Shown here piece after piece: positions 15,725 to 35,789 of a stretch of DNA of 35,789 nt. The DNA lies in the IMG/VR virus record IMGVR_UViG_3300020054_001200, positions 1-35,789 of that record, one strand, 5' to 3'. This DNA comes from a virus. The notes under the pieces were generated by a model. It did not search any database, was not told where the DNA came from, and saw only the letters and a program-made list of their open reading frames with translations. Position numbers and translations under genes: made by a program. Numbering within the stretch: the stretch's first letter is position 1; the number at the start of each line of letters is the position of its first letter.

Positions 15725-15732
15725 ACGGTTCA

Positions 15733-15740
15733 CTCTCCCC
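15733..15740 (-). promoter_or_regulatory. Ribosome binding site GGGGAGAG that decides the giant fibre start
   Basis: GGGGAG ends ten bases before the ATG at 15724, a workable spacing. The alternative GTG at 15733 overlaps the last base of this element, so it cannot use it. Only three residues differ between the two starts. Confidence 0.6.
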
Positions 15741-15764: not shown

Positions 15765-15772
15765 TATTTATC
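15765..15772 (-). promoter_or_regulatory. Candidate late promoter box GATAAATA before the giant fibre
   Basis: The minus strand reads GATAAATA, one base away from the T4 late consensus, and it overlaps the TGA stop of the upstream fibre gene. It ends 40 bases before the ATG at 15724, the expected distance for a late leader. The same string also occurs at 30162-30169 inside a gene, so a chance match is possible. Confidence 0.35.
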
Positions 15773-18700: not shown

Positions 18701-21700
18701 AATCAATCGATCCTGTAGGAACCACAAATTTATCAGCAGCTTTATCTACATACGCAAGATAAGTAAACCCACTGTTATAAAAACCTACCTTCCCGCCAAC
18801 ACCTACAAAATATGTTGTAGAATTAGTATCTTCAGTAAATTGAATAACGGAGCTAGTACCGCCAAATCCAAAAATAGCCTGATTAAGTCTTGAAGTTCCT
18901 GCTGGGTCTGCATAAAAGGCGGTGTCGTCCGCGTCAATATATCTTGACGCTGTAATATTTCCAGTTGTTGATAAGTTTTGACTAATCGTCAAATCTTCAA
19001 TTGTTACATCAGCAAGTACAGACGTGCCGTCTGGGTCAAGATAATAATTTGCATTATTTGCATCAACAATAATCGGCGTATTTAAAATACCACTAATATT
19101 AAGATTATTTAATTCCGTTGTCCCAGAAGGAGTTACAAAGAAGCTATTGTTTGTACTGTCTAAAAATGTTGGGGCAATAAGGTTGTTTGCAGCGACAATA
19201 TTGTTTCCGCTTGTAATTGTATTTGCGGTATTAACAGTATTAAGTTCGGAAGTTTGATCCGGGTCAAGATAATAATTTGAGTTATTTGCGTCGATGATTA
19301 AAGGTACTGTAAGAGCGCCTGTCATCGAGTCTCCGTCTGCATTTACAAAGTTGACATTTAAGTCTTCTGAAATTACATTTACGACGTGACCAAATTCATC
19401 AAATTCAATATCGTTAATTACAACGCCAGTACCGTTATTTGTATTTGCAACATTTGAAGTGTTTGCGTGGCGAATGTCCGCGATAGCAGCAACACCGGGA
19501 GTTAAATTAATCTCTATTCCACTGTTTGCAGTAATATTAGAAATATAATCAACCGTAATCGTTGTAGTAATTTCTGTGTTTGAATTACGTATGACCGTAT
19601 TAGAACCAACGACGTCTCCAACTAAATCGATGTCAAAATTATGTACATAAATTTCCATCTTTCCAGGCTCAGGAGGATTGCCTGTAGGAGAGTCGTTGTA
19701 AATAACATCAACACCTTCATTAACCGTAAATTGCCACATTTGGCCGGCAATGTCTTGCGTCGTTTCAGTTAAGTCTATTACCGCGTTTGCAGAAAAAGCG
19801 ATCGGAATATCAAATGCGCTTTGAATACGACCATCAGATCCTACTACAATTTGAGGAATGAATCCTTCAACACCGTAGGTATCTGCGTCCACCCCAGTGT
19901 TTGAAATTTGAAAATTAATTTCGTTATTTGCTTGATCATAATAAAACCGCAATCCTTGCCCACGAGTAATTACGGGATTGTTTTCTAACAGATCTAAGTT
20001 ATAAGTATTGCCACCGTCTTGAAAAGAAAATTGCCTTGCAAATCCGCCATTTTCTAAATAGTTGTAATTAACTGCGTGACTGTTTGCGGTAGGATCGCTA
20101 ACACCAATGATTTGATTGTTTGATGCATCAATACTACCGATTGGATCAAGTACTAAATTACCTGGTGAAGTTATTTCACCGACTGTAATAATTCCTTCAA
20201 TTTGAATATTCCCAGTCGGTTGAGCAACAATTTTATCTAAAGAATTACCAAATCTTAATGTACCATCGTCGTCAATTTGTAATCTTTGAATGCCTGCGGT
20301 ATAGAAGTCTAATTGATCGTTGTCAGCGCCTGTAGGATCTTCTGCAACAATTTTTGTATCTTGGTCGATATCAATTACAGATCCAGATAAACCTGACCAC
20401 AGTGTACCATTATATGCCTCGAACCGCTGATCATCCGTATTAAATCGAATCATACCAGTTTGCGGAGTCGGCCGATTTCCTGTACCACCTATAGGAACAA
20501 TGATTGCTCCTGTCATATCAAAACTAACTATTTCAGTATTGCTATCAATGATTCTTGTATAAAGGCGATTCCAATTTTTAGTTAATGAACCAAGATTAAA
20601 TACCGCGTCTTGGTCTGGGACAAGATTACTTGTGAAATCAGCAATAACTTCAATGGTATCGACATCCTGATCACCAATCCTAATATTACCGCCAAGAGTA
20701 ATATCGCCGACGACATCAAGATTACCTGCAATGTTTGTGTCGCCAGTTGAATAATCAATTGTAAATTTATTTAAGCCTGCGCCGTAATCAAACGACCCGT
20801 CAGCATCAATTCTTAATCTTTGAACACCAGCGGTATAAAAGTCTAACTGGTCGTTATCTAAACCAGGCGCAGATTCTGCAACGACATAAGTATCTTGATC
20901 TACATCTATTGTCCCGCCGAGGCCAGTCCAAGCAACACCGTTATAAGCTTCAAATCTAGAGTCCGTTGTATTATAACGGATCATACCTTGTTCTGGTGGA
21001 GGTCGCTGTAAGGTTGTACCGACAGGAATATTTAAACCGCCAGTACTTTCGGAATGAATGATAATACTATCAAATGTTAAACGATTATTTCTTCCATCAA
21101 TTTCTGTAACTTCAAGTAAATCAAGTTGTCTTATTTCTGTTGCTGATTGACCTAATTCTACAAATGTACTACCGATAATGATATCTTTATTTTGTAGCTT
21201 TGCATTACTAATGCCAAGATCTTTAACCTGAAGTGTATCATTAACAATTTCAATTGTAACGTCATCAACATTAACTGCAATGTTTCCACCAGTTAATGTT
21301 ATTCCGTCTCCGCCTGAAAATGTGCCTTCTCCAGAAAATTGTTTAAACGTAACTGTATCAGAATCTAATACAAATGTTTCAGTATCGGATACAGTAGCTA
21401 CCCAAGATGTATCTCTGTTAACATTACCGTCTGTTACAAAAACAAACGATCCTGGTATTTCTTTTGTTTCGTTATTGAAATCTTCACGTTGAAACAACCA
21501 CGGATCAAAACTTCCGCCCAAATCGATTAACTTGTATATACCATTTTGAGATGGCGTCAATTGATCCTTTACAAGAAGCAGATCGCCAACATTCCAAGAC
21601 GTAACACCATCGATATTTAAAGTGCTAGCGTTAGGTAATGTTAATACAGTGTTTGCAGAATCATATGTTGCAGTCAAATCAATTGTAGTTGCTGCCTTTG

Positions 21701-22586
21701 CAGATCTTCTTAGAGATAAGATTTCTATTAATTCATCTACGTATTGCTTATTTGCAGCATCAGTTGGATTTACAGGGTCTGGTACATCGAGTAAATCAGC
21801 CTCAAGTAAACTTAATTCTGTATCGACGTAATTCTTTGTTGCGGCATCTTGTGGGTTGGTTGGATCAAATAAATCTACAATTTTGCTGCCGGATATATTG
21901 ACATCTCCGACAGTTTGTATTATAATACCATTATTGGTGCTAAGGATATTATTAGCAAGAGAAAAATTGCCAACGGTGAGATTATCGAGTCCGAGGATTT
22001 CAGGAGTCGTTTCACCAAGAGTAAGACTAGTTGTTCCTAAAGTAAAGTCAACTGATGTAGTATTTATAACTACATTCGCAGTTCCATCAAAAGAAACAGC
22101 ACCTGAAATAACTCCATTCAAAGCTATTTCAACTGGTGTCTCTAATGAAGAGGCAAATTCTATCGTGTTGTTAGATTCAATTAAAGTGATATGACCAAAT
22201 TGGTCTATCTCAATATTTGAAATATAATAACCAACAGCGTTAGTACTACTTGTTTCGGTTGTCGTATTTGCGTGAGAAATAACAACATTTGCTGATTCAA
22301 CATCATCTTCAGGAAATACAATAATTCCAGGTCCACCATCAATCCTTCTTATATAAGGACCAATAGTGTCGACGCCCAAGACAATAGAATCAGGAACAAT
22401 AACAGGTTTCTTTTCGCCCTGTGCAACAATAGGTCGGGTTGTTTCCTGTTTAGGAACAGACCTTATTGCAGTTGACGAACCTACACGAACCTGAATATTA
22501 CCGGTAGTCTTTACAGTCGTTTGGGATTCCTGTTCACTAACGTTCGCCGTAACACCGCCGTTTTCGCCGACAGTAACTTGAACCAT
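15771..22586 (-). CDS. Large beta-structured tail fibre with internal duplications and a tip domain, no S74
   Basis: The protein has 2271 residues. GGAGGT six bases upstream of the ATG is the strongest ribosome site in the window, and the start overlaps the BppU-like stop as TAATG. Fibre motifs include FGH strand endings (GHITLI at 131, FGHVV at 1065 and 2069), D-P-x-N-P-x-D-A-A-x-K-x-Y-V-D (241-255, 270-284, and variant 1384-1398), five Y-x-D-P motifs (about 1098-1320), DADLLDG (1606 and 1645) and KLDGIEPGATADQTGAEI (1955-1972). Several blocks are duplicated within the protein. Residues ~2165-2271 form a distinct C-terminal domain with SAYSSVEY, VVHDG and TEYG, resembling tip domains of marine phage fibres; it probably binds the host or a partner fibre, which is inference. 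It lacks the S74 chaperone present in the other two fibres, so folding may need another factor. Confidence 0.85.
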   Translation of the reverse strand: MVQVTVGENGGVTANVSEQESQTTVKTTGNIQVRVGSSTAIRSVPKQETTRPIVAQGEKKPVIVPDSIVLGVDTIGPYIRRIDGGPGIIVFPEDDVESANVVISHANTTTETSSTNAVGYYISNIEIDQFGHITLIESNNTIEFASSLETPVEIALNGVISGAVSFDGTANVVINTTSVDFTLGTTSLTLGETTPEILGLDNLTVGNFSLANNILSTNNGIIIQTVGDVNISGSKIVDLFDPTNPQDAATKNYVDTELSLLEADLLDVPDPVNPTDAANKQYVDELIEILSLRRSAKAATTIDLTATYDSANTVLTLPNASTLNIDGVTSWNVGDLLLVKDQLTPSQNGIYKLIDLGGSFDPWLFQREDFNNETKEIPGSFVFVTDGNVNRDTSWVATVSDTETFVLDSDTVTFKQFSGEGTFSGGDGITLTGGNIAVNVDDVTIEIVNDTLQVKDLGISNAKLQNKDIIIGSTFVELGQSATEIRQLDLLEVTEIDGRNNRLTFDSIIIHSESTGGLNIPVGTTLQRPPPEQGMIRYNTTDSRFEAYNGVAWTGLGGTIDVDQDTYVVAESAPGLDNDQLDFYTAGVQRLRIDADGSFDYGAGLNKFTIDYSTGDTNIAGNLDVVGDITLGGNIRIGDQDVDTIEVIADFTSNLVPDQDAVFNLGSLTKNWNRLYTRIIDSNTEIVSFDMTGAIIVPIGGTGNRPTPQTGMIRFNTDDQRFEAYNGTLWSGLSGSVIDIDQDTKIVAEDPTGADNDQLDFYTAGIQRLQIDDDGTLRFGNSLDKIVAQPTGNIQIEGIITVGEITSPGNLVLDPIGSIDASNNQIIGVSDPTANSHAVNYNYLENGGFARQFSFQDGGNTYNLDLLENNPVITRGQGLRFYYDQANNEINFQISNTGVDADTYGVEGFIPQIVVGSDGRIQSAFDIPIAFSANAVIDLTETTQDIAGQMWQFTVNEGVDVIYNDSPTGNPPEPGKMEIYVHNFDIDLVGDVVGSNTVIRNSNTEITTTITVDYISNITANSGIEINLTPGVAAIADIRHANTSNVANTNNGTGVVINDIEFDEFGHVVNVISEDLNVNFVNADGDSMTGALTVPLIIDANNSNYYLDPDQTSELNTVNTANTITSGNNIVAANNLIAPTFLDSTNNSFFVTPSGTTELNNLNISGILNTPIIVDANNANYYLDPDGTSVLADVTIEDLTISQNLSTTGNITASRYIDADDTAFYADPAGTSRLNQAIFGFGGTSSVIQFTEDTNSTTYFVGVGGKVGFYNSGFTYLAYVDKAADKFVVPTGSIDSPILYDADDNNYYIDPNSTSNISALDVENTATASIFDATTRLEVGQMYITSNQIQNFGTFSLTSAAAVTITAGSGTVDVNTSRIIDVSNPINPQDAATKDYVDTSSQGVANNLIGGEGLTYTVANTTFDVNVDDSTIEIVSDALQVKDGGITNAKITNPYITFAGEFGSADNVNLGETITFTAGEGIDTTVSNNVITIAGELATTSNIGIASFSSNNFTVTSGLVEVVEIDGLDTLIQLDRNPIANTTPGWTPVLEDLELGELVANTFEGKLFLKQHNPTTNANTLITFTADPSELLELIKTVDGAGSGLDADLLDGANSDYYLDYQNFTNTAALLTTILTIDGAGSGIDADLLDGANSDYYLDFNNFTNVPPTDLDLTITGDVEGNAYTNTGIMTITAELTDTGVTANTYGSASQIPIITVDVDGRITAATTAAVAGISNTDWYSANNTFQINTQDGSVFNTKIDDFDSAVTFSNIETTQISSPGANTPFTGDIYVNGDINLTGLVDGRDIALDGEKLDRIEEDLTVTLTGKVTGTVTSNTGIMTVVTELANTTVTPGTYGSSSQIPIFTVDEDGRLTAASNTSVAGVDSVDWYSANNTLQILTGDGSTFNAVIDTFTDISANSITTEWLHVNNDLSVNGDIIVDGTVDGRDIAADGLKLDGIEPGATADQTGAEILALLLPVDGDGSLLDADFLDGLEAQDIIDQAVLEANSNIGTATITLTAGDAIAGGGTFSVNQVSNSEITFNHDDTSSVANTAVGNNQIISSIDFDTFGHVVGVQVANAEFGLSEAEANALFVNVDGDTMTGPLFVDNLLTANNLHVVNNLTVNNTIIANNDITTNQDFYANNAFIDFNLTVDNGITVTGNVNYAYHTNKSFRLTTTATGAQTADAWAMSAYSSVEYTITGKQGSDVHLTRILVVHDGATPIATEYGEVITGSSLGTFDFTTNFGLVFFEISPASATSTQWTIFATLADV

Positions 22587-22921
22587 TAGATCACCTCCGA
22601 AATAGTCGGAACTATTACTGCAAGTCCTTCAACTACTTTCGATATTTCTCCTGATGTTTTACGCATTAATACGTCGTATTGATATTTGCCAGGCTTAAGA
22701 CTTGCCGTGTCAGCGTCAGTCAATACAAGTGTGATTGAACTATTCGGTGAATCCTTTTCAATAGTAAAAGTCGCAATACTAGTTGACGAATACATCTTTC
22801 TCATACTAGCAAAAAAATCATATGTTTCAATAGGCAAAGGTGTACCGTCAGTATCAGAAATACCAATTGAGATTCTAAAATCCGTACTTTGATCTACGTA
22901 TATATTTGCTCTCGATGCCAT
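22586..22921 (-). CDS. BppU-like N-terminal-domain small baseplate/fibre adaptor protein
   Basis: The protein has 111 residues and starts MASRANIYVDQSTDFRI. The pattern is that of the beta-sandwich found at the N-terminus of BppU-type baseplate proteins and in small free-standing proteins of marine T4-like phages: a polar opening strand, D-x-D-G-x-P-L, a middle strand with FASMRKMYSS, a D-x-x-T-x-x-L-K-P-G-K-Y-x-Y-D-V turn (about 72-85), and a final strand ending EGLAVIVP. It is the first gene after a terminator and a perfect late promoter box, and its stop is fused to the start of the 2271-residue fibre, so the two are made together. A role in attaching that fibre to the baseplate is inferred from this coupling. 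The domain assignment is by recognition only. Confidence 0.6.
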   Translation of the reverse strand: MASRANIYVDQSTDFRISIGISDTDGTPLPIETYDFFASMRKMYSSTSIATFTIEKDSPNSSITLVLTDADTASLKPGKYQYDVLMRKTSGEISKVVEGLAVIVPTISEVI

Positions 22922-23014: not shown

Positions 23015-26000
23015 TTATTTATTCTTTAGGTCTTCGATTTGTTTCTTAAGATCGTCAATTTGACTTTGTTGTTCTTTCATTGCCTCGATTAATAAACCAA
23101 CCATATTACCATAACTGACTGCTAAATAATCTTCTTCTTCAATATTAGATTCAACGACAACTTCTGGAAGTACCTCCATGACTTCTTGTGCAATGACCCC
23201 AACTTTACGTGTTTTAAGTTCGTCATTAATTTTATTGAAATAAACACCCCTTAATTGTAAAACTTTTTCTAAGGCATTATCAATAGTAATAATATTTTCT
23301 TTGAATCTAGCATCAGAAGAAGAAATAACATCTCCGTTTGCTTGTATATCACCATACGAGATAAATATAGAATCCGTACTGGTATCGCCTGGAGAGAATA
23401 AAAAACAAGCCTCGTTAGAAGGATTTCTTATTGAGAAAAACAAAGCCTGGCCGAGCGTTGTAAGAGCGGTTAGTCTTTGAAGAACTAAACCTCCAGGCGG
23501 GGTGCCACCAAAACCATTGGCAGCATCTTGGAACATCTTCCAATCGCCGGCGCCATCCGCGGTTCCACTACCAAAATATAATGCATTGTTTGTGCTGCTA
23601 TCTCTGAACTGTAAATAACCAGAAGTATCAAATATTAAACCGCCGTCCGTTTTAACCGCAACATTAGTCTCATCTAAGAAAACCGTAATTGCGTCTGTAA
23701 TATCTGATATGTCAGCACCAGCTGCAACAGTAACTGTAGCTCCAGATTCAATATTAAGAAACGCGCCGTCTTGGATATCAATCTGGCCATTAGGACCAAC
23801 AATGTCTATATCACCTACAACATTAATATTAGTAACTTTCAATAAGTCTAACGTATTGTTATATGTGAATCTATTTAAGGAATCCGGTATACCAGTTGCA
23901 GGATCTGTGTTGGTCACGCCTCTCGTGGCATAAGTTTGAGCAAACCCTTCATCATCGGTATCAGATACCCAAACGATTGGCCCATCAAAATTACCGTCAC
24001 CAGAAGTTAATGTATAAGAATTTATTGGCGCAAAATTATCTACCGCTGATGCGCCTTGTGCTCCTTGCGGCCCAGGTGGCCCCTCTGGCCCAAAAGGTCC
24101 TTGAAAACCTTCTCCGCTTGGTCCTTGCGGGCCCGTACCACCCTGTGCGCCTTGACCCGCTGGGCCTTGAGCACCTTCTCCTGCGAAACCTTGGAATCCT
24201 CTATAACCTTGAATACCTGGTTGCCCAGGGCCTCCATCAAATCCTTGAGGTCCTTGAAAACCGTTTGCGCCTTGGGGTCCTTGGAAACCTTGATTACCTA
24301 CACCCAAGCCACCTTGAAAACCTTGCGGTCCATCAAATCCTTGGAATCCTCTGTAACCTTGAACACCGAAGCCACCGTCGTATCCTTGAAAACCTTGAGG
24401 GCCAATAGTACCTTGTGGTCCTTGAAAACCAGGCTCACCAGATCCTTGGAAACCTTGGAAGCCTTGAGGACCTAATCCGCCTTGTATACCAGGCTCCCCA
24501 ACACCCGGCCCACCTTGTAAACCTTGGGGTCCTTGAAAACCTTGGACACCTTGGTCAGATGTTGCGCCATCGGCTCCCTGTGGACCAAATCCGCCTTGAA
24601 TACCTTGCGGTCCTTGCGATCCAACTCCATCGTTTCCAGTTAAACCTTGGAATCCTCTTTCACCTTGAATACCTTGATCGCCGACACCGGCCGCACCTTG
24701 AGTACCAAAGTCACCTTGAATGCCTTGGGCACCTTGTACCCCCTGAACACCTTGTAAACCCTGCGCACCAGGAGAACCAGGACCACCACCTAATCCAGCC
24801 GCACCTTGATTACCTTGTAAACCTTGCGTTCCCTGCGGGCCTTGAACACCTTGTAAACCTTGCGCCCCTTGTGAACCTGGTGTACCATCTTGGCCGAACC
24901 CTTGGGCACCTTGTACCCCCTGAACACCTTGGTCCCCTTGTCCTTCAGGACCTTGCGTTCCTCCAAACCCTTGCGGACCAAAACCGCCTTGCAGACCTTG
25001 AATACCTTGCGGACCTAAAGCTCCTTGCGTTCCAAGCGAGCCGTTTATACCGTTAGCGCCTTGTAAACCTTGAGTACCTTGCGCTCCAGCGCCAGTTGCG
25101 CCTTGGAATCCTCTATCTCCTTGAATACCTTGAGTACCTTGGAAACCTTGAGAACCAGGCAAACCGCCAGGACCAGTGTCACCAGTTCTTGCAAAAGTTA
25201 CAATTACATCTTCACCTTGAATGAAAGCATTATTGTTTCCGCTTACATACGCTACATCAATTGCAAAATATGATGCAGATTCTGTTAATCCTGAAATAGT
25301 AAATAAAGCAAAATCTGCAGGTGCCGACTTTTTAGAAACCTTCATGTGTCCTTTAATAGGACTGGTTGAATCGTCAATAGTTCTTAAATACGCTTCAATT
25401 AATACGCCGTAATCATCCCTGTCGCCCATATAAACAATGGTCGCCGCTGCCGCAGTTGAAGCATTCCAACTTAAAACACCAGTTGCTGCGAATGGATTCG
25501 GCGCTGTATTTGAAGTACTATAAGTGTAATCAAATGTTACACCGCCAAATCCGCCAGAGTCTCCTTGAAAACCACCAGCGCCTTGAATACCTGTCGCGCC
25601 TTGAGTGCCGCCTTCGCCAGTTGTTCCTTGTACACCTTGTACACCTTGTGGTCCTTGAATACCTGTTGCACCTTGAGCACCAGATGAACCTTGAATCCCT
25701 GCAGGACCAGCTGGTATAAAAGTTATATAAGTCTCAGGTGAATAACCGTTAGCAGTTATGATACCGTTAAGAGATACTGTATTGGTACTGATAGCAGTAA
25801 CATCGAACGTTGCCCAGGCCTGGGATCCACTATCCCAGGTAATATTGTTTATTTCATAAAAAAGATCGACTGTGACAGAGTCTTTAAGCCGAAGAATTAA
25901 ATGACCTTTTGGATCGGAAGGATTTGCAATTAGGTAATCATAAAAATCATCAATGTCATTATTTTCACCTATAGGCAAATCATCAATAGTAATTACAGTA

Positions 26001-28765
26001 GCTAAATTATCAAGATTATTATTTGTCTTGAAATAACTAACTCCAGGATTTGTACCAGGAGTTGTATTATTACTGAAGTTAAACAAATATGTAAAACCAC
26101 CAGGCTGCCCTTCGCCTTCGTTACCTTGAAGACCTGTTTGTCCTTGTACACCTTGTGGGCCTAAATCTCCTTGAATACCAAACGTGCCTTGAGTACCCTG
26201 CGGACCTTGAGGACCTTGTATACCTTGTAATCCGCGATCTCCTGATGGATCAATTGCAAAAATTACAGTTGATCCGGCAGCGGCAGCGCCACCGTTGTCA
26301 TTATACCATTGCGTGGTAGTACCAGCACCTTGACTGTATATGTGATTTACGTCAAATACATAATAATCATCAGGATACGCACCACCGGCCGGTTGATCCG
26401 TTGCTTGTATAAAACTGTATGAATATAATGCATAATATTCATCAGGATTATTATAATTTAATATCTTTAAATATCCTAGCGGGGTTGTTTGACGAGTTGC
26501 TGCTTCTGCATATATGTCGCCGACATAATGAACACCAGCGCCAAAGTTAAGTTCAATATTATCAAAGCAAGATCTATTAACTGCAATCTGTGTTGTGCTT
26601 GTAAAACTTGCATTGTTTAATACAATATTTGCAGCGTTCGACGCGTCAGTTAATGCGGTCGATACGTGATATAATTGATATCCAAAGTCAAGAGGACCTA
26701 AAGAAACTGGCCCGGGCACGCCAGCGCCACCCTGAATACCAGTCGCGCCTTGAACCCCAGGTGCACCAATTGGTATAAAAGTAATTAATGTTTCAGTGCC
26801 GTGAGAAGAAACAATAGTGTTCCAATTGCTAACGTTACCGTCGATATGTGATACGGTAAAATAACCCCAATTTTTGCCAACGCCATCCCAAGTCCAATCG
26901 TTAACTTCGTATACCAACCAATGATGACCACCAGCGCCAACTCCACTCGCCGGCGCTTGTACTTTTAGATAACCTCGAACACCTGCCCCACCAGCAAGAC
27001 CGTCGATCCAATCTAAAAAGTCATCAATTTCAGTATTATATTGATCGTCAGGAATGTCATCAATATACAGTTGTGTTGCAAGGACCGGATCGGATGAATT
27101 TAATTTCCAATTGTTTACGCCTGGATCAAGACCTTGCGTAGTATTTGAATTAAAATTCCATTGGAAAGTCAAGCCGCCGTATTCACCTTGTTCCCCTTGA
27201 AGACCAAGACTACCTTGTAAACCTTGAGACCCAGTTGCGCCTTGAACTCCAGATTCGCCATCTGTTCCTTGAACACCTTGAGGTCCTTGTAAACCTTGAA
27301 GACCCTGCGGGCCTTGAGTGCCTTGAGTACCCTGCGGTCCTTGAGTGCCTTGAAGACCTTGTGGTCCTTGTAAACCTTGAAGACCCTGCGGGCCTTGCGA
27401 ACCAGTTGTACCTTGATTGCCTTGCGGTCCAATCGCGCCTTGAATACCAGTGCCGCCTGTTAAACCTACAAAATTGAAATTAAGCTCAAATAATTGACCA
27501 TAAACCCCAATTTGTGTTCCCCAATCAGCACGGCCATCGACATATGTACAAGTTAATTCCCAGTGAGTAGTTTGATCTGTTAAAGAATCGACTTCAACCC
27601 AAGTGTAATCATTATCACTTGCAGCGTCTGCCCGTTGTTTCATTAACATAAAAGCTTTTGGGTTTGAGCTTCGAGCTTGTAAATTTGCAAACGCACCTGA
27701 AACCGTTGCAACCGCAGGCCCATCAATTGCGGAAAAGTCGTCTATGTATAAAGTAAATGTACCAGCGGCTTGTAAATCATTAACACTAGTATAAAAATAA
27801 GTATTTCCTGGATCTGTTGTATTACCGTTACTTGCATAATCATAATTAAAAATGAAAGTCAAACCGCCAGTGAGACCTTCTTGTCCTGTCGAACCTTGAA
27901 TACCTTGAAGACCTTGTGGTCCTTGTAAACCTTGAAGACCTTGTGGTCCTTGGATCGACTGCGGTCCTTGTAAACCCTGAACGCCTTGTAAACCTTGAAG
28001 ACCTTGTGGTCCTTGAAAAGCTTGGGGACCTTGCAAACCTTGCAACCCCTGAGGACCTTGTGGTCCTTGCAAGCCTTGAACACCTTGAAAAGCTTGAGGA
28101 CCTTGTATACCCTGAGCACCTTGGAATCCTTGTACGCCTTGATCACCTTGAAGGCCAGTAAGACCTTGTGGTCCTTGCGCCCCAATAAATCCTTGGGTAC
28201 CTTGAAAACCGCGATCTCCTTGAATACCAGTTGATCCTTGTGGACCTTGAACACCTTGATCTCCGCGGAATCCACGAGTACCTTGAATACCTTCGTATCC
28301 TAATTGACCTTGGACACCTTGATTACCTTGTACACCCTGAAACCCTTGTACTCCGCGGAAAGAACCAATATTAACCCAATTAGTACCATCGTAAATCCAA
28401 AGTTCGTCTAATAAATCATCGATAACACCTTCACCAATATTTGCTGTTGGAAAGGTTGTGGATAATAGTGTTTGAGGATCACCAGTTGAATTAACATCAG
28501 CTACGGAACCAATAATTGTAAAACCAGGACCGTAATCGCCTTGTATGCCTTGTGTACCTGTGTTACCTTGTAAACCTTGAACGCCTTGAGGGCCTGTGCC
28601 AAGGTCTAACCATTGTGTACCGTCTGAATATTTTAAAGTACCATCATCTGCATAAACGATAGCACCTTCAAATGGAGCGGGATCCAATTGAATTGGAAAC
28701 GCTTGAGGTACACCTTGGCCAATTGTAGGCGTTTTACCTGATACTGTTCTAAACCCGCTAGGCAT
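23015..28765 (-). CDS. Collagen-like tail fibre with five globular modules and C-terminal peptidase S74 chaperone
   Basis: The protein has 1916 residues; GGAG lies nine bases before the ATG. Residues 1-57 form a head with a Y-A-D-D-G-T-L-K-Y-S-D-G-T-Q-W strand pair. Gly-X-Y runs, mostly with Gln in the third position (GPQ, GLQ, GVQ, GFQ), occupy about 58-82, 137-300, 434-531, 669-689, 843-889, 1021-1074 and 1195-1572. Between them lie a short insert (83-136) and five globular modules at about 301-433, 531-668, 690-842, 890-1020 and 1075-1194. Residues 1573-1816 are a beta-rich shaft or tip, and 1817-1916 are the S74 domain (Ser1817, Lys1822) ending in a coiled coil. Family knowledge predicts a trimer: a collagen triple helix with bead-like domains. 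It probably reaches towards the host surface. A terminator follows its stop. Confidence 0.85.
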   Translation of the reverse strand: MPSGFRTVSGKTPTIGQGVPQAFPIQLDPAPFEGAIVYADDGTLKYSDGTQWLDLGTGPQGVQGLQGNTGTQGIQGDYGPGFTIIGSVADVNSTGDPQTLLSTTFPTANIGEGVIDDLLDELWIYDGTNWVNIGSFRGVQGFQGVQGNQGVQGQLGYEGIQGTRGFRGDQGVQGPQGSTGIQGDRGFQGTQGFIGAQGPQGLTGLQGDQGVQGFQGAQGIQGPQAFQGVQGLQGPQGPQGLQGLQGPQAFQGPQGLQGLQGVQGLQGPQSIQGPQGLQGLQGPQGLQGIQGSTGQEGLTGGLTFIFNYDYASNGNTTDPGNTYFYTSVNDLQAAGTFTLYIDDFSAIDGPAVATVSGAFANLQARSSNPKAFMLMKQRADAASDNDYTWVEVDSLTDQTTHWELTCTYVDGRADWGTQIGVYGQLFELNFNFVGLTGGTGIQGAIGPQGNQGTTGSQGPQGLQGLQGPQGLQGTQGPQGTQGTQGPQGLQGLQGPQGVQGTDGESGVQGATGSQGLQGSLGLQGEQGEYGGLTFQWNFNSNTTQGLDPGVNNWKLNSSDPVLATQLYIDDIPDDQYNTEIDDFLDWIDGLAGGAGVRGYLKVQAPASGVGAGGHHWLVYEVNDWTWDGVGKNWGYFTVSHIDGNVSNWNTIVSSHGTETLITFIPIGAPGVQGATGIQGGAGVPGPVSLGPLDFGYQLYHVSTALTDASNAANIVLNNASFTSTTQIAVNRSCFDNIELNFGAGVHYVGDIYAEAATRQTTPLGYLKILNYNNPDEYYALYSYSFIQATDQPAGGAYPDDYYVFDVNHIYSQGAGTTTQWYNDNGGAAAAGSTVIFAIDPSGDRGLQGIQGPQGPQGTQGTFGIQGDLGPQGVQGQTGLQGNEGEGQPGGFTYLFNFSNNTTPGTNPGVSYFKTNNNLDNLATVITIDDLPIGENNDIDDFYDYLIANPSDPKGHLILRLKDSVTVDLFYEINNITWDSGSQAWATFDVTAISTNTVSLNGIITANGYSPETYITFIPAGPAGIQGSSGAQGATGIQGPQGVQGVQGTTGEGGTQGATGIQGAGGFQGDSGGFGGVTFDYTYSTSNTAPNPFAATGVLSWNASTAAAATIVYMGDRDDYGVLIEAYLRTIDDSTSPIKGHMKVSKKSAPADFALFTISGLTESASYFAIDVAYVSGNNNAFIQGEDVIVTFARTGDTGPGGLPGSQGFQGTQGIQGDRGFQGATGAGAQGTQGLQGANGINGSLGTQGALGPQGIQGLQGGFGPQGFGGTQGPEGQGDQGVQGVQGAQGFGQDGTPGSQGAQGLQGVQGPQGTQGLQGNQGAAGLGGGPGSPGAQGLQGVQGVQGAQGIQGDFGTQGAAGVGDQGIQGERGFQGLTGNDGVGSQGPQGIQGGFGPQGADGATSDQGVQGFQGPQGLQGGPGVGEPGIQGGLGPQGFQGFQGSGEPGFQGPQGTIGPQGFQGYDGGFGVQGYRGFQGFDGPQGFQGGLGVGNQGFQGPQGANGFQGPQGFDGGPGQPGIQGYRGFQGFAGEGAQGPAGQGAQGGTGPQGPSGEGFQGPFGPEGPPGPQGAQGASAVDNFAPINSYTLTSGDGNFDGPIVWVSDTDDEGFAQTYATRGVTNTDPATGIPDSLNRFTYNNTLDLLKVTNINVVGDIDIVGPNGQIDIQDGAFLNIESGATVTVAAGADISDITDAITVFLDETNVAVKTDGGLIFDTSGYLQFRDSSTNNALYFGSGTADGAGDWKMFQDAANGFGGTPPGGLVLQRLTALTTLGQALFFSIRNPSNEACFLFSPGDTSTDSIFISYGDIQANGDVISSSDARFKENIITIDNALEKVLQLRGVYFNKINDELKTRKVGVIAQEVMEVLPEVVVESNIEEEDYLAVSYGNMVGLLIEAMKEQQSQIDDLKKQIEDLKNK
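23018..23317 (-). other. Peptidase S74 intramolecular chaperone domain of the collagen-like fibre
   Basis: This codes the last 100 residues. SDARFK gives the Ser-Lys dyad (Ser codon 23315-23317), followed by TIDNALEKVLQLRGVYFN, KVGVIAQEVMEVLPEVVV and a C-terminal coiled coil. It is the shorter paralogue of the domain that ends the giant fibre. Confidence 0.85.
24050..25183 (-). repeat. Collagen-like Gly-X-Y coding repeat, longest block
   Basis: This codes residues 1195-1572 of the collagen-like fibre. On the plus strand it appears as endlessly varied ACCTTG/CCTTG words, the reverse complement of CAAGG across Gln-Gly. Compared with the N-terminal blocks it is richer in GFQ, GVG and GEG triplets and has several one- or two-residue breaks of the Gly period (for example around GVGEPG and GSGEPG). 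Confidence 0.8.
27866..28357 (-). repeat. Collagen-like Gly-X-Gln coding repeat, most regular block
   Basis: This codes residues 137-300 of the collagen-like fibre. The run is nearly pure GPQ/GLQ/GVQ, with only three Gly replacements in the stretch 213-300, and has strong DNA-level repetition. A similar but shorter block (residues 434-531) lies at 27173-27466. Confidence 0.8.
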
Positions 28766-28780
28766 TAATTAGATCTCCAA

Positions 28781-29206
28781 TTATACAACGTCATCTTCTT
28801 CAGACTGACCTAACGTAAACGATAAGGTAGTATGAACGGCTAAATCAACATCAGCCTTAGCTTCTAAAATATCTCCAGATTTTAAAAATTGACCGTTTAA
28901 TGAAATAGGAATTGTTTCATATGCAGGTAATTGCAAATTCCTAATAATGTAAAATGTCGTATTAAGATCATAACGATATACTTGAACATCAACAACAACT
29001 GTGCTAGCTGTAGTGTTGCATAAAATTAATGGTGAAATAACTTCAGCAACACCGGGCTCAACAGTCGTAGATCCGCCAAATACTAATTCTGGGACTTCAT
29101 AATTTGGCACATTGATAATTTCTTGCCAATTAGTCGACAAAATTAAATTTTTGGCGACTGGTTTTGCGTCAGGCGCCTGCGATGTTACGATTGTAGTAAT
29201 TGACAT
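28781..29206 (-). CDS. Small beta-rich phage structural protein of unknown function
   Basis: The protein has 141 residues and no named function that I recognise. It opens MSITTIVTSQAPDAKPVAKN, then alternates beta strands (TTVEPGVAEVISPLILCN, STVVVDVQVYRYD, TFYIIRNLQLPAYETIPISL, HTTLSFTLG) in a pattern that suggests a jelly-roll or Ig-like sandwich, and ends in an acidic EEDD tail. AAAGGA lies seven bases before the ATG, and the gene sits 11 bases after the large repeat protein and 15 bases before the collagen-like fibre, so all three are probably read from one late transcript. A role as a connector or fibre-attachment protein is possible from its position, but this is inference. Confidence 0.6.
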   Translation of the reverse strand: MSITTIVTSQAPDAKPVAKNLILSTNWQEIINVPNYEVPELVFGGSTTVEPGVAEVISPLILCNTTASTVVVDVQVYRYDLNTTFYIIRNLQLPAYETIPISLNGQFLKSGDILEAKADVDLAVHTTLSFTLGQSEEDDVV

Positions 29207-29217
29207 TTTTTAATCCT

Positions 29218-32200
29218 TTATACAAATGCTCTACTTTGAGAAGCACGTCTTGCAAGTTTTCTTACTGATGAAGTAAACGGTCTTCCTTCGATTCTACCTG
29301 TTCTACCGTTAATTCTCAATCCTCTAGCAAAATATTGGTTGTTTAATTCGTCTGAACCTGACCATCTTACCCTGCCACCATCTTCATATAATACAGATGC
29401 TAAAGCTGAAATTGCACTACCCAAGTTTCTAAAGTTAAGAGGCAATGCATTCCTGTTAACACCGGCTGACGCGCCATTAAACTGATGGGCAATTGATTCG
29501 ACCAAGGATCCAAATACTAATGTGTCTGGCCTTAACAAATTATCAATAATACAATCATCAATTAAACCTTGAATCATTAATATTGTTGTTGGGTCCACTG
29601 TATAAGTACTAACTACATCTCTAATTTTTACAAATGAACTAACAAACGCGTCCAACAAGTTAGTATTATTAGGTCCATCATTAAACCAAATTGCGCCATT
29701 CCAGTAATATATATCTCCTTTGTAATAGCTAACGGAAATATCGTCAGCAACAATATACGCATCATTAACTAATGCCTGTCCAATTCCAGGCAATTCTCCA
29801 ATATTTGCCTTAGTACCTTTGAACTTTAAGTAAGGAGTATTTGAATTAAATACTGGGAATACATGATCTCCTTTGTAATCAAAGAAAGATGCAGCAAAAG
29901 TTCTTGTTGCCTGTTGACTTCCAGTTGTCCCTGCAGAAGGATTTGTATACAAGAAATCATTTGTAAACGCAGTCAAGAAATTAATCGTATCTCTTCTTGT
30001 TAAAGGAATATCAATATACTTATACGTCGCATTAACATATTTGACAACATCAAATGATAATTCAATCTTACGCTGTTTCAATACATTTAACGCGTTTGTA
30101 TAATCAATTCCAACCCAATCTAAATCAGGTTCTTCTCTTACATCAAGGTATTTTGTATCATTATTTATCAAAGTCTCGTAAAACATTTGGCCTATCTTTA
30201 AGGCTTTCTTACTTTCTGTTTCTCCGCCAACACCGCTATTGATAACTTGGTTTGGATAATCCCCAGTTACAATTTTTGAAGCAATCCTACCTAATTCTCT
30301 ATAAGACCTTGCCGTTGCTTCAAGCTGATCTTCAGGCAAACGTAATTCATTATTCCAATAATAAAATTCAATATTCCATCGAGATGCAATATTTCCATCG
30401 TAATTCATATCGTAACTCATTGCATCAACCAAGTATTCCACGTCACGACGACATTTTGCCCTGTTGTAATCAAGAACTGTAAATTCTTTTGCAATCCAGG
30501 AAATTAGGTCGCTTGATAAATCTGCAGTATTTGTTACCAATGCATCAGCAGCTTCTACAATCGATGCGTCAACCCAGCTAAAATCAGGTTCTTCAATTTC
30601 TGGGATAGTATCAATAGTTTCGTTTCTAATACAATCTTCGATGATTCTTACTAATTCTAAACCACGAGCACCTTCAACGCCTGATCCAGCATCTTCAGCA
30701 AAATTTTGTGGAGTTGAAGTATAAGCTGAATTTTGTACGTCTTCTTTAATAATTACGCTTCTAATTAATTCACCAAGATACTCGTAAGCATCCGCGGTTT
30801 GTACTCTAGTTCCACGGGACAATACACTTGAACCGTTTTCAAAATAAATTTGAGCATTGATTCTTGTTGCTGTATTACCGCCGTATTGGATATCATGAGA
30901 AAGAGCATCAACAATAAACCCAACGTCACGACGACAAGATTTTTCATCATACCCAAGTCCGTTTAGGTTTTCCGCAATATAAACAATTGTTGAATCGATT
31001 AATGTAGAAATTTGTCGTGTTATAGTTTCTTTTGAATCAATATATGTTTGTGCAACCCAACTTGTATCAGGATCGATCCTTTCAGGTATTGCTGTAGGTC
31101 CTAAGTTTTGCGCTGCGGTCGCAACAATTAATGCTAATTGTTCAACTGCATCGCCAGTATTTGGATTTGCTGCAACGTATGTAAAGTCTTGCGCAACAGT
31201 ATTTCCTTCTGAAGGAACGATTGTAAATTCTCTAGTGATTTCATTCATCACTCTAGCCAAGTGAGTAAATGCTCTCTTTGTTGGAATTCTTTGCAACTCA
31301 GGCAATACGTTAATAGCGTTTTCAAAATAAATTTGGGCCGCTTGAACAGTTGCTGAATTGCCACCGTATTGAATATCGTGTGATACCGCATCAACAATAA
31401 ATCCTGTATCGCGATAACACTTAGATTGATTATAACCTAAGCCATTAAAGTTTTCAGCCAGCCAAGTAATTACAGTTTCTTGCAATTCAGGCTTAACATT
31501 TGATATCACCGTAGAAGAAACGGAATTTGAAACGCCGTATATTGAAGCAGTCGGTTCTTGTAAGGTTGGCAATCCATCTAGACTATTTGCTGCTATCACA
31601 TTTGGAGTAATATCAAACAAACCTTTAACTTTTGCTGCAACCTCAGGACCAGCATCTCCGGCAGTAACTTGTGTTTCAGAATTTCCTGTTGTTGGGGTTA
31701 CTGCTTGGCTTCTTGCAATTGATTCCGTGATTGCTGATAAGTGCCTAAACCCATCAACAGTTGCAGCTCTTTGATGAACAGGTAATACGCTAGTTGCATT
31801 GATAAAATACATTTCAGCATCCCACCTAGAGGCAGCATTGCTGTTATGTTTGATATCCCAAGTAACAGCATCAACCAAGTATCCAACATCTCTTTCACAC
31901 TTGGCCTCGTTATAACCCAAACTCCTTGGGTAATTTGTATTTAAATATGAAATTGCATTTGTAATGATTGAGGTTTGATTAGTAGCAATTTCTGTAGCTT
32001 GTCCAGCCGTAGCCGATCCAGTAAAGTCAGGTTCAATAGTTGCAGGTATACTTGAAATATTGCCGGCAGTCAACGCATTAATGACAATGTCCAATAAGTC
32101 GTTAACTCTTGTTTGTTCAGCTGAAGTTACAACATAAGTATTAGTTATTGTTTTTAATTGACCATAAGCAGCAATTGAAGCTGTTGTTTCTTCCGAGCTT

Positions 32201-35200
32201 CCTAACTGACTAACTGCGCCATCAAAGTATGCAATTGCGCTAAGTCTTGATGAACTGTTGCCGCCGTATTTAATATCGTGTGTTAAAGAATCAAGAATAA
32301 ATCCAGTGTCACGCTCGCAATCAGCAACGTTGTATGTTGGCCAATTTACGTTAACCCAACTTACTGTATCAGAAATAACAGTTGCTTGGTTTGTTGTAAT
32401 CTCATCAAATTCTGTTGTATCTAAACCAGTTGTATTAATTTCAACCGTTGCCGGGAGGCCTGTCAAATTGCCTGCATTTATAACATCAATTATTATTTGC
32501 ACTAATGCGTTTGAATCGGTTGTAAGTTGCGCTGGCAAATCAACTAGTAAATCTGCTATAGCGCTTCGCAACGTTGTGAACGCCGCGGCGGTTGGCCCTT
32601 CTTCACCGGTTCCTAACAATAATGTTGCTCCTTCAAAATAAGATTCTGCATTTAATCTTGAAGAACTATTTCCGCCGTATAACAAGTCATGACATACGCC
32701 GTCAATTATAAATCCTGTGTCTCTTTCACACTTTGCAACATCATAAGTTAACGCTGGATATGTAACCGATATCCAGGCGGTTAAATCATTAATTAAAGTT
32801 CCGCGATTTCCTGCAATGAGTGCAACAGCGGTTTGACGATCTTCGTCTTGATATGTTGCGCCTTCAGTTGCAGGGAAGAAAGAAGGTTGAATAGTCGTAA
32901 CAGTTCCATCAATAAATTGAGTAACATTACGGAACAAATCTCCAATTTCGCCAACACTTGTTACATTAGGTAATTGCTGTACAAGATCTCTTGCATAATT
33001 AACAGCGGCAACAGTTGCATTAACTTGGTCGTTTGCAGGGTATCCGCTATTAGGTCGGAGATAAGCATTACCTGCTGTAATTGTATTATGATTAGTGCCA
33101 AGCAACAAATCTCTACGAACCGCATCAATAATATAGCCAAGGTCTCGAGTACACTTGGTGTTATCATAATAAATTTCTGGATGATTTGTCTGAATCCAAG
33201 TTGACAACTCAGAAATAATTGTTGATCTGTTTGCAATTATTGCGTCTGCGGCTGCAATGCGATCTGCTGTTTGATATGTTGCACCAGCGGTCGTCGGGAA
33301 TGTTGAAGATTGCAAAGTGGTAATAGAGCCACTAATAACATCAGTAATTCTTGCAAAAAGAATATCAATTGAAGCGCCAGTTGAAGGCAATGCATTAATA
33401 GCTTGTCTAACTTGATCTATAACGTCAAGTTCTTCTTCTTTCCTTGCTCCAGTATAAGTATCGCGTAAGTACGCATTCCCTGCAGTAATTGTGTTATGAT
33501 CTGTACCCAAACCAATATCGCGACGAACGGCATCGACAATATAACCAAGATCTCTTTCGCAAATTTCGTTTGTGTAATCAATTGACAAGAAATCAACAAC
33601 TGCGCCTTGATATGTCTCTCTGTTATTTGCAACTGTTGCGTGATCGGTTTGATATTGTAATGCAACAAACGTTGTATTTGGCTCAACCTTAGCAGGAATG
33701 TTTTCAGGAGTTGCATCGTTAATTATCTCTGCAAACATCGTTCCAAGATCAAGAACAAACGCAGCTTCTGTTGCAGTCGCTGGATTCCCAGAAACGTCTT
33801 GAGTTAACAAAACGCCAGGAGACGAAGTTACTGCAGTTTCAGTAACAACTTGCGACATTACTTCAGCCAATCTTTCGTATGCAGCTGCAGTTGAAATTTG
33901 ATCGTTCAACGGTAATACATTGGTACCATCAACATTGAAATAAATTTTTGCGGCCGCAACTGACGCACGATTACCGCCGTATTGAACGTCGTGAGAAATT
34001 GCATCAATGATATATCCTGTATCTCTTTCGCATGCAGCCACATCATATACTGGGTAATTGCTATCAATAAACGTAGTGACTCCAGTTTGAATTGTTGCAG
34101 TTGATGTTTGAATATCGTCATGGACTGTTGTTACATACCCAGTTAAATCCGGTTCAACAACGGCTGGCAAACCTGCAACAGATCCTGCAGAAATAACATC
34201 AATTATAATGTCAAGCAATGCAGAAATTTCAGACTGTTCTGGGAATGTTGTTACATATTCATTAATAATTTCTTTAAGTTTTGAATATGCAAAAATCGTT
34301 GGCGGTATTTCGTCAGGGCCTAATTGAGAAGCGGTACCAACAAAATAAGCATCAGCCGCACGTATAATTGCAGAGTTACCACCGTACAATATATCGTGAG
34401 ACAAAGCATCGATGATATATCCTGTATCTCTTTCGCAATCTGCAACGTCGTATTTGTGAGTCGGATAATTGTTAGTAATTTCTAATAATAATGTAGTTTG
34501 AATTGCTTGACGATTATTTTGCAATCCATCTTTTGCTGCAATACGATCGGCTGTTTGATATGTCGCGCTTGGAGAATTTGGATAAGTTGGCTGAGTATAA
34601 GTTGTTACAGTTCCGTTTAATACATCAGTTACTCTCTTGAATAAAGTACTAACAACACTTGTTACACCGGCCGATACGACAGAGGCAATAGAGTTTACAA
34701 GTAGTTCTGCTTGATTAATTCCGGCAATCGTATATTCTAATTGATTGCTTAATACGTATGCAGATCCAGTTCTTAAGTAAGCATCCCCGGCAGTGATCGT
34801 GTTATGATCTGTACCTAATGTCAAATCTCTTCTTACAGCATCAAGAATATAACCAATGTCTCGTTGACATTTAACTTGGTCATATTCTGGCAAATTATTT
34901 TCAATCCATCTAGTGATTTCTTCAATAATGAAACTACGGTTTGCTTGTAATTGTTGTCTTGCATATAAACGTTCAGTTGCAATTCCTGGGTCTGTCCAAA
35001 CTAATGCATTTGCTGCCGCAGTTCCGTTATCAATAATATCGTTGATTTCGTCTATTGAATTCGTGATTCTTGTTTGAGAATTAGCGTCCGATATATCATC
35101 AAGTAACAAACGCTTAAGTTCATTAAACGCTGCAATTGTTTGAGACTTTTCATTTGCGATTGTATTCGCCGCGGTTGCAGTGTGATAAGCAACGCCAGCT

Positions 35201-35789
35201 TGTATTGAATTAAAGTTAGTACCTAACAACAAATCTAATTGAACCGCATCAAGAATCAAACCTACATCCCTAAAACATTTTTCATTATCATACGTGAAAT
35301 AATTATCATTAAGATATGCTGTCAATTCTTTTTGTAAGAATGTTTTGTTGGCTTGAATTAATGCGCTGGCCGTATCATGGCTTGCATCGAAAGATTGAGC
35401 GCCAAAGTTAATAACATCAGCAGCGCTAGAACCATTTTTCATTATATCAATAATTTCATTAAACGCATCTGTTGCTGCAGCTTTGCCAGTCAAATCACCA
35501 ATATAATTTACTGTTTTGTCTCTTACGTATTCAATTGCGCCAACTGTTTCTGTAAGTTGTTCATTAATAACTTTGTCTGATCCAGCAGTTCCACCTCTGT
35601 ATGCAAGGCCAGCAAAAATTGAATTAAAATTAGAACCTGTTAATACGTCTCTTGATACCGCATCCAATATTGTCCCGGTATCTCGACTACACTTGTCTCC
35701 GTCGTACGTAAAGTAATGATTATCCAAAAAGCTAATCATTTCTTGTTGTAGGAATGCCTTATTGGCCTGCAATTGTTGTCTTGCAACTG
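29218..35789 (-). CDS. Giant repeat protein with Cys-x-Arg-Asp units (5' end beyond window)
   Basis: At least 2184 residues are visible and the frame remains open to the right edge. The first possible start in view, TTG at 35772, lies inside a repeat (VARQQLQAN, matched by YARQQLQAN at residues 270-278), so the real start is upstream. Numbering from 35772, 13 units share Y-D/N-x-x-K/D-C-x-R-D-x-G-x-I/L-x-D-A, with Cys at 28, 166, 302, 446, 581, 738, 874, 1015, 1152, 1292, 1452, 1613 and 1774; a 14th near 1925 has Thr for Cys. The units are mainly helical. Residues ~1980-2035 contain a sugar-fibre-like YYKGDIYYWNGAIW strand pair. The basic C-terminus (GLRINGRTGRIEGRPF and on) resembles large virion proteins of marine T4-like phages. 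I know no function; a virion or fibre role is inferred. Confidence 0.75.
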   Translation of the reverse strand, partial: VARQQLQANKAFLQQEMISFLDNHYFTYDGDKCSRDTGTILDAVSRDVLTGSNFNSIFAGLAYRGGTAGSDKVINEQLTETVGAIEYVRDKTVNYIGDLTGKAAATDAFNEIIDIMKNGSSAADVINFGAQSFDASHDTASALIQANKTFLQKELTAYLNDNYFTYDNEKCFRDVGLILDAVQLDLLLGTNFNSIQAGVAYHTATAANTIANEKSQTIAAFNELKRLLLDDISDANSQTRITNSIDEINDIIDNGTAAANALVWTDPGIATERLYARQQLQANRSFIIEEITRWIENNLPEYDQVKCQRDIGYILDAVRRDLTLGTDHNTITAGDAYLRTGSAYVLSNQLEYTIAGINQAELLVNSIASVVSAGVTSVVSTLFKRVTDVLNGTVTTYTQPTYPNSPSATYQTADRIAAKDGLQNNRQAIQTTLLLEITNNYPTHKYDVADCERDTGYIIDALSHDILYGGNSAIIRAADAYFVGTASQLGPDEIPPTIFAYSKLKEIINEYVTTFPEQSEISALLDIIIDVISAGSVAGLPAVVEPDLTGYVTTVHDDIQTSTATIQTGVTTFIDSNYPVYDVAACERDTGYIIDAISHDVQYGGNRASVAAAKIYFNVDGTNVLPLNDQISTAAAYERLAEVMSQVVTETAVTSSPGVLLTQDVSGNPATATEAAFVLDLGTMFAEIINDATPENIPAKVEPNTTFVALQYQTDHATVANNRETYQGAVVDFLSIDYTNEICERDLGYIVDAVRRDIGLGTDHNTITAGNAYLRDTYTGARKEEELDVIDQVRQAINALPSTGASIDILFARITDVISGSITTLQSSTFPTTAGATYQTADRIAAADAIIANRSTIISELSTWIQTNHPEIYYDNTKCTRDLGYIIDAVRRDLLLGTNHNTITAGNAYLRPNSGYPANDQVNATVAAVNYARDLVQQLPNVTSVGEIGDLFRNVTQFIDGTVTTIQPSFFPATEGATYQDEDRQTAVALIAGNRGTLINDLTAWISVTYPALTYDVAKCERDTGFIIDGVCHDLLYGGNSSSRLNAESYFEGATLLLGTGEEGPTAAAFTTLRSAIADLLVDLPAQLTTDSNALVQIIIDVINAGNLTGLPATVEINTTGLDTTEFDEITTNQATVISDTVSWVNVNWPTYNVADCERDTGFILDSLTHDIKYGGNSSSRLSAIAYFDGAVSQLGSSEETTASIAAYGQLKTITNTYVVTSAEQTRVNDLLDIVINALTAGNISSIPATIEPDFTGSATAGQATEIATNQTSIITNAISYLNTNYPRSLGYNEAKCERDVGYLVDAVTWDIKHNSNAASRWDAEMYFINATSVLPVHQRAATVDGFRHLSAITESIARSQAVTPTTGNSETQVTAGDAGPEVAAKVKGLFDITPNVIAANSLDGLPTLQEPTASIYGVSNSVSSTVISNVKPELQETVITWLAENFNGLGYNQSKCYRDTGFIVDAVSHDIQYGGNSATVQAAQIYFENAINVLPELQRIPTKRAFTHLARVMNEITREFTIVPSEGNTVAQDFTYVAANPNTGDAVEQLALIVATAAQNLGPTAIPERIDPDTSWVAQTYIDSKETITRQISTLIDSTIVYIAENLNGLGYDEKSCRRDVGFIVDALSHDIQYGGNTATRINAQIYFENGSSVLSRGTRVQTADAYEYLGELIRSVIIKEDVQNSAYTSTPQNFAEDAGSGVEGARGLELVRIIEDCIRNETIDTIPEIEEPDFSWVDASIVEAADALVTNTADLSSDLISWIAKEFTVLDYNRAKCRRDVEYLVDAMSYDMNYDGNIASRWNIEFYYWNNELRLPEDQLEATARSYRELGRIASKIVTGDYPNQVINSGVGGETESKKALKIGQMFYETLINNDTKYLDVREEPDLDWVGIDYTNALNVLKQRKIELSFDVVKYVNATYKYIDIPLTRRDTINFLTAFTNDFLYTNPSAGTTGSQQATRTFAASFFDYKGDHVFPVFNSNTPYLKFKGTKANIGELPGIGQALVNDAYIVADDISVSYYKGDIYYWNGAIWFNDGPNNTNLLDAFVSSFVKIRDVVSTYTVDPTTILMIQGLIDDCIIDNLLRPDTLVFGSLVESIAHQFNGASAGVNRNALPLNFRNLGSAISALASVLYEDGGRVRWSGSDELNNQYFARGLRINGRTGRIEGRPFTSSVRKLARRASQSRAFV
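29970..35789 (-). repeat. Array of 13-14 Cys-x-Arg-Asp units of about 135-161 residues
   Basis: Distances between the conserved Cys residues are 138, 136, 144, 135, 157, 136, 141, 137, 140, 160, 161 and 161. The units fall into three classes by sequence and length: those with HNTITAG or NFNSIxAG after the motif, short ones with GGNS and a GLPAxVEPD linker, and long ones with VLPxxQR. Similarity is at protein level; the DNA has diverged. Confidence 0.8.

Follow-up and report, generated by a model that had tools for sequence, protein, structure and literature searches.

In phycobiliproteins (PF00502: phycocyanin, allophycocyanin and phycoerythrin, including ApcF and the scaffolded red-algal phycoerythrin beta chain), a bilin is attached at the Cys84 site and held by Arg86 and Asp87, and an N-terminal X-Y hairpin is needed for pairing of the alpha and beta chains. 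The T-type lyases CpcT and CpeT (PF06206), which serve host antenna proteins in cyanobacteria, form a class specific for Cys155 of the beta chain and load that residue (PMC2327270). Phages carry cpeT as well, and the role of the phage cpeT and bilin genes, the target of the phage lyase included, has been described as unresolved or a mystery (PMC3037559). Cyanophages further encode giant proteins (PHROG 4527, 5342, 701 and 18802, among them the 3,779-amino acid (aa) short tail fibre of S-PM2 and the 'gp7' of P-HM1) that were hitherto known only as structural or hypothetical. Here, we analyse a gene of this kind in a 35,789-base virus record (IMG/VR record IMGVR_UViG_3300020054_001200, called the window below in its full length), which has the repeat family and the fibre-gene neighbourhood in common with these giants. 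We conclude with high confidence that its tandem units are distant relatives of phycobiliproteins, in homology, in fold and in the equivalence of the first cysteine of the unit. The window and its closest relatives (the window clade) differ from the PHROG giants in having more units and no second cysteine.

Tandem units in a giant virion protein

The gene is a minus-strand open reading frame (ORF) whose 5′ end is open and runs off the window, leaving 2,189 aa in view. The motif C-x-R-D occurs 13 times in it (Table 1), against 0.05 occurrences expected from the composition of the ORF, and 13 of its 16 cysteines belong to this motif. A profile hidden Markov model (HMM) of the unit, grown on 30 relatives and finding 336 such domains, recovers every one of the 14 units in the window with E-values from 3e-22 to 2e-46. 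The repeats recognised by the initial annotation, which was made from the letters of the window, are thus real; thirteen units had been claimed, and thirteen do carry the cysteine, while the total is fourteen, the last being a unit with TRRD, in which Thr at aa 1930 takes the place of Cys. The array had been placed at 29970-35789, and its lower limit has to be extended to the stop codon at 29218. Across an alignment of the 12 complete Cys units, Y46, C51, R53, D54, D60, D65 and Y81 (unit 11 numbering) are invariant.

Full-length IMG/VR relatives measure 3,000-4,200 aa. Among those checked, L031 is the longest, at 4,182 aa and 20 units, which shows that the start of the window protein lies outside the window, as had been implied. 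At the N-terminus of the L031 protein, aa 129-197 form a pentapeptide-repeat beta-helix (PF13599, 3e-13), so that a fibre of this kind may start as a beta-helix and end as a phycobiliprotein-like array. To call the function of the protein unknown was too pessimistic, given its matches to a PHROG short tail fibre family (phrog_4527, 5e-117) and to Pfam Phycobilisome. With this family match and with neighbours that carry an S74 chaperone and collagen repeats, the protein is best explained as the C-terminal portion of a giant fibre from the tail of a T4-like phage, most likely a cyanophage.

Relationship to phycobiliproteins

PF00502 (Phycobilisome) is the sole Pfam match of the window ORF, at 4e-7 and 30.5 bits against a cut-off of 22.2, and the S-PM2 giant scores 1e-9 and 38.8 bits at the same cut-off. 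No single stretch passes the cut-off alone, and L031, at 17.9 bits, stays below 22.2. A PF00502 scan of the window record missed the units at first look, and it is hmmscan of the protein that finds the family. At the level of units, PF00502 is matched by 41 of 48 units of S-PM2 type (next family, 2 of 48) and by 23 of 84 two-unit segments of the window clade (next family, 4); in the cyanophage relatives its matches always fall within giant ORFs. Since Pfam recognises the domain in some giants, the match is visible to anyone scanning them. In the open-access literature searched, we found neither a description of phycobiliprotein or phycobilisome domains in phage tails nor a paper linking the PHROG 4527, 5342, 701 and 18802 giants to phycobiliproteins.

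Profile comparisons point the same way. Searched against all PDB sequences, the window-unit profile had allophycocyanin beta-18 as its best match (0.007), with a collinear alignment spanning positions 14-138, and with the S-PM2-type profile the best 60 matches listed were all phycobiliproteins or the related smURFP (best 1.1e-4). Using hhalign against 38 phycobiliproteins, window-type units reached 93.8% and S-PM2-type units 94.6%, compared with 0.4% for a reversed profile and at most 0.7% and 1.3% for 30 column shuffles; much of this signal is carried by the C-x-R-D motif. Identity between phage units and phycobiliproteins is about 15%. Unlike phycobiliproteins, the units stand in tandem in one virion protein of 2,000-4,000 aa, and the phage family has strictly kept residues of its own, an Asp, an Asn and a Tyr after helix E. 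A likeness is offered by the bilin-binding proteins of smURFP type (6fzo is among the profile matches), which are small stand-alone domains of phycobiliprotein fold, although those proteins are engineered and the phage units are viral.

The fold was modelled by AlphaFold without templates, from alignments of phage sequences only. A two-unit window model (units 11 and 12) gave a predicted local distance difference test (pLDDT) of 86 and a predicted template modelling score (pTM) of 0.75, and a single S-PM2 unit gave 93.7 and 0.90. In Foldseek searches of the PDB, the single-domain matches of the two-unit model at probability 1.00 were phycobiliproteins (5y6p_jI, template modelling score (TM) 0.74), while fused haemoglobins aligned loosely across both units (TM 0.3); for the S-PM2 unit, all of the top 50 were phycobiliproteins or the related 'bacterial fluorescent protein' 8u0f, with TM up to 0.77. 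The modelled helices are A, B, E, F′, G and H, in the order found in phycobiliproteins, helix F not being separately predicted. Judging from these models, the unit most likely belongs to the phycobiliprotein branch within the globin-like fold, and such domains would be set in tandem into a rod.

A globin rather than a phycobiliprotein fold was considered and is disfavoured, as no globin occurs among those top 50. The same matches bear on the proposal of a different tetrapyrrole or a haem-like ligand, bound in a globin pocket in place of a covalent bilin. Although the fold is part of the globin superfamily and the first Foldseek list did include some globins, the better model retrieves phycobiliproteins and the related fluorescent protein alone, and the C-x-R-D signature matches bilin sites; we regard such a ligand as highly improbable.

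Several results count against the phycobiliprotein assignment. When C-x-R-D is masked, hhalign falls to 5.5%, with the collinear path kept, and shuffles that keep the motif reach 7.0%. The C-terminal half of the unit (G-H) aligns weakly by sequence, and the Foldseek E-values are modest (best 0.0016). The N-terminal X-Y hairpin, present in phycobiliproteins, is absent: the units begin at helix A, with no helix before residue 10. In view of this absence, the unit counts as a divergent relative rather than as a phycobiliprotein of the standard type.

The C-x-R-D site and the second cysteine

In the hhalign, PDB and Pfam matches, the C-x-R-D of the unit aligns with Cys84, Arg86 and Asp87 of phycobiliproteins, and in the AlphaFold models the unit cysteine lies at the start of helix E. 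This site is common to phycobiliproteins and phage units. In the window clade Asp is kept in 277/277 units, Arg in 273/277 and Cys in 256/277; the first cysteine is present in 456 of 459 S-PM2-like IMG/VR units and in 46 of 48 units of long-CpeT isolates. The cysteine is therefore conserved, as the initial annotation had it, whereas the interchain disulfides or metal site that it was suggested to mark find little room. A single Cys per unit in the window clade would suit them. However, an Arg-Asp pair comes after each Cys within a helix, just as it does in phycobiliproteins, the models put it at the start of helix E, and the clade has no conserved His or second Cys beside it, all of which makes a disulfide or metal role very unlikely.

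A second cysteine occurs in 36/36 aligned units of long-CpeT isolates and in 368 of 382 (96%) S-PM2-like IMG/VR units, as against 0/132 units in the window clade. In the S-PM2 unit model this residue (C142) stands directly before the last helix (143-162), a position that appears to match the cysteine before helix H of phycobiliprotein beta chains. By hhalign it falls on the GDCS Cys of beta chains at a relaxed threshold only, in an alignment end of low confidence. The match to beta chains was weak (15%) for a narrow set of 16 S-PM2-type units and reached 81% for a broad S-PM2-type set.

Units are also seen in ORFs of 4,400-7,300 aa annotated as baseplate wedge initiator gp7 or structural protein, in Syn9, S-SM1, P-HM1 and others (L315-L324, W13, W15-W17, W20-W24). 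In these ORFs Arg is often lost (C-K-T-D, C-E-D-D) and both cysteines are mostly kept.

Distribution and host

When 50,697 phage records were searched leniently with the S-PM2 unit, 395 matched, all of them cyanophages except for a marine single-cell virus of the Kyanoviridae; the remaining phages in the set had no unit match, and a search of plasmids gave none either. Cyanophages make up all of the named relatives. Looked for as host markers, psbA and psbD were absent from the 23 window-clade fragments searched. One tail gene of the window is nearest to Methylophilales phages, which have no units at the search sensitivity used.

In S-PM2 (NC_006820, 168556-173383; L178, 24602-29429), RefSeq places 16 tRNAs inside the giant coding sequence. 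ARAGORN finds no tRNA within it and only six upstream, so that the RefSeq tRNA annotation seems misplaced.

Association with cpeT and a possible bilin cofactor

The phage cpeT gene adjoins the unit-bearing fibre gene. It precedes the giant gene by 0.4-1.4 kb, both being on one strand, in S-RSM4, Syn1, S-WAM2, ACG-2014i, S-CAM1, S-PM2 and Sf-CH1a, and hardly any gap separates the two frames in the single-cell virus AG-345-P14. For IMG/VR loci found by the unit alone (flank of at least 1.5 kb), 16 of 23 have cpeT upstream. Co-occurrence was counted in 13 T4-like cyanophages (myoviruses) picked by accession only: eight have units and CpeT, one has units only (S-ShM2), four have neither (P-SSM2, S-SM2, S-SSM7, S-CRM01) and none has CpeT only (Fisher p 0.007), with the weakness that these counts are uncorrected for phylogeny. 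A link between the units and bilin synthesis by the phage (PebS/PcyA) was also tested; phycobilin synthesis genes do not track the units.

The explanation that we find probable overall is a tail fibre of phycobiliprotein fold whose sites still bind host bilin. The bilin would be taken from the cyanobacterial host and held covalently at the first cysteine. In S-PM2-type phages the adjacent phage CpeT would load the second cysteine, the apparent match of beta-Cys155, and a host lyase or autocatalysis the first; in the window clade the first bilin site alone would remain. For phages with cpeT, we put the presence of bilin on the units at about an even chance; for the window clade, with its first site alone, the case is more tentative and falls somewhat short of that. 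In a pigmented fibre, an abundant host cofactor could stiffen or fold the structure, or could act as a light-responsive element at adsorption.

The phycobiliprotein fold might instead have been recruited as a colourless structural brick, with Cys, Arg and Asp capping or locking helix E in a fibre that holds no pigment; CpeT would then act only on host phycobiliproteins, and its adjacency to the fibre gene would be conserved late-gene order. The stricter conservation of Asp and Arg than of Cys in the window clade is what a structural role predicts, and the loss of the X-Y hairpin, the independence of units and bilin synthesis genes, and the conserved order of cyanomyovirus genes around gp5 and the fibre genes are in keeping with it. 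So is the finding that S-PM2 infection raises host phycoerythrin per cell, with cpeT proposed as the driver (PMC2984593). Yet a buried structural cysteine should sometimes become Ala, Ser or Val, which sits poorly with the near-invariance of Cys in the S-PM2-like units; moreover, the second cysteine appears at the T-lyase position in lineages with CpeT, and the unit is restricted to phages of bilin-making hosts. We take the colourless brick as a serious but lesser possibility.

Bilin binding with loading by CpeT, the reading we prefer, has its own difficulties. Arg is often lost in short-CpeT phages, being kept in 10 of 31. S-ShM2 and DSL-LC03 have units without CpeT; in P-HM1, S-CAM22 and S-SCSM2R, CpeT is encoded at the fibre locus or close to it and the units are elsewhere; and P-SSM2 and S-SSM7 have a bilin reductase without units. 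Window-clade contigs, which are fragments, yielded neither CpeT nor CpeS, cpeT being absent from the 31 searched, and the S-type lyase CpeS, a partner candidate for the first cysteine, was found in none of 48 records.

Light and adsorption

S-PM2 reportedly depends on light to adsorb, and P-SSM2, which has no units, reportedly adsorbs in the dark. P-HM2 shows no adsorption in the dark, whereas the podovirus P-SSP7 adsorbs in the dark (PMC7112961); P-HM2 has units and CpeT and P-SSP7 has neither, a difference that would fit light-dependent adsorption by way of a pigmented fibre. Light-dependent adsorption has been reported for several marine cyanomyoviruses (PMC2984593), which suggests, speculatively, a light-dependent step. 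While S-PM2 and its host coexisted, two large phage ORFs, of 3,338 and 3,779 aa, acquired mutations (PMC9910659). By size, they correspond to the two unit-bearing giants of this phage, and mutations there would fit a role at the host surface. That cyanophage virions are pigmented, with host bilins on tail-fibre domains, often attached by CpeT, making adsorption light-dependent, is an idea we think unlikely though worth stating; use of a pigmented fibre at adsorption is likewise doubtful and the weaker inference.

These proposals join three loose ends, namely the nature of the giant repeat tail proteins, the purpose of phage cpeT and the adsorption of some cyanophages only in light, and all three questions can be tested with existing isolates such as S-PM2 and P-HM2. 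If pigment were found, this would to our knowledge be the first virion with a phycobiliprotein-type chromophore. Even without pigment, the recruitment of a light-harvesting fold as a building block of tail fibres, across hundreds of phage genomes, has no precedent in the literature searched.

Unit classes and history of the array

The units had been sorted into classes A, B short and B long, and their order had been read as an ancient block duplication followed by growth at the C-terminal end. The 14-unit tree places class A in one group (95/95), in line with this sorting; B long (69/70) and B short (46/80) also cluster, without firm support. A larger tree, with 92 units taken from seven phages, joins units 3, 6 and 7 of the window and L031 at 97 and units 4, 8 and 9 at 88. 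The three C-terminal positions are orthologous across the seven phages (support 100/100/97), the last units forming one clade at 100, and additional units are found only in the window and L031, where they are placed mid-array. Because these extra units lie mid-array and group among themselves, we attribute them to duplication of an internal block in the window/L031 lineage. The duplication is thereby upheld, and growth at the C-terminal end is ruled out by the 92-unit tree. The proposal that the Thr of the last unit marks an end cap gains support as well, as the Thr recurs in the relatives L031 and L044 and the last units are of one clade.

In S-PM2-type arrays (L010, aa 1171-1904; L009, aa 1140-1537), helices A and B are missing from following units, which may thus be completed by the last helix of the preceding unit.

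Annotated features and neighbouring genes

Table 1. Features annotated in and beside the giant gene of the window
Feature	Position	Strand	Evidence
Giant tail-fibre/virion protein, 2,189 aa shown, 5′ end outside window	29218..35787	-	phrog_4527 short tail fiber 5e-117; PF00502 Phycobilisome 4e-7
Unit 1, class A, Cys aa 33, N-terminus cut by window	35422..35787	-	unit HMM 8.9e-40
Unit 2, class A, Cys aa 171	35014..35418	-	unit HMM 1e-36
Unit 3, class A, Cys aa 307, grouped with units 6 and 7	34603..35001	-	unit HMM 1.8e-35; tree
Unit 4, B short, Cys aa 451, best Pfam Phycobilisome stretch, grouped with units 8 and 9	34174..34587	-	unit HMM 2.4e-39; tree
Unit 5, B long, Cys aa 586	33706..34170	-	unit HMM 6e-43
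Unit 6, class A, Cys aa 743	33319..33699	-	unit HMM 2.1e-24
Unit 7, class A, Cys aa 879	32896..33300	-	unit HMM 2.2e-34
Unit 8, B short, Cys aa 1020	32461..32877	-	unit HMM 4.4e-38
Unit 9, B short, Cys aa 1157	32053..32457	-	unit HMM 6.2e-34
Unit 10, B long, Cys aa 1297	31576..32049	-	unit HMM 8.4e-45
Unit 11, B long, Cys aa 1457, first half of two-unit AlphaFold model	31099..31572	-	unit HMM 2e-46; pLDDT 86
Unit 12, B long, Cys aa 1618, second half of two-unit AlphaFold model	30610..31089	-	unit HMM 1.3e-45
Unit 13, B long, Cys aa 1779	30151..30606	-	unit HMM 2e-42
Unit 14, end unit, Thr aa 1930 for Cys, with insertion	29593..30147	-	unit HMM 2.7e-22; tree support 100
141-aa gene directly downstream of giant gene	28781..29206	-	no family match
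Neighbouring tail fibre, collagen-like repeats and C-terminal endosialidase chaperone (Peptidase_S74)	23015..28765	-	PF01391 1e-75; PF13884 6e-16
111-aa tail-fibre assembly-like protein	22586..22921	-	phrog_3304 2e-15; relatives in cyanophages and Methylophilales phages

A gene similar in size to the 141-aa gene follows the giant gene in L033, L046 and L053 too. Two more giant fibres, of 4,012 aa (3695-15733) and 2,271 aa (15771-22586), lie on the minus strand and contain many short repeats of the form YYDxDNxxFYxDPxxTS, the 4,012-aa fibre having an S74-like chaperone region at its end. The adjacent, overlapping genes at 2391-2723 and 2723-3247 (minus strand) both match DUF7936 (PF25590), an apparent tandem duplication. 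At 1305-2348 (minus strand), a sugar-related protein of 347 aa has relatives only in the Synechococcus phages DSL-LC02 and S-SCSM2R (43-46%), where they are annotated as beta-mannosyltransferase or similar.

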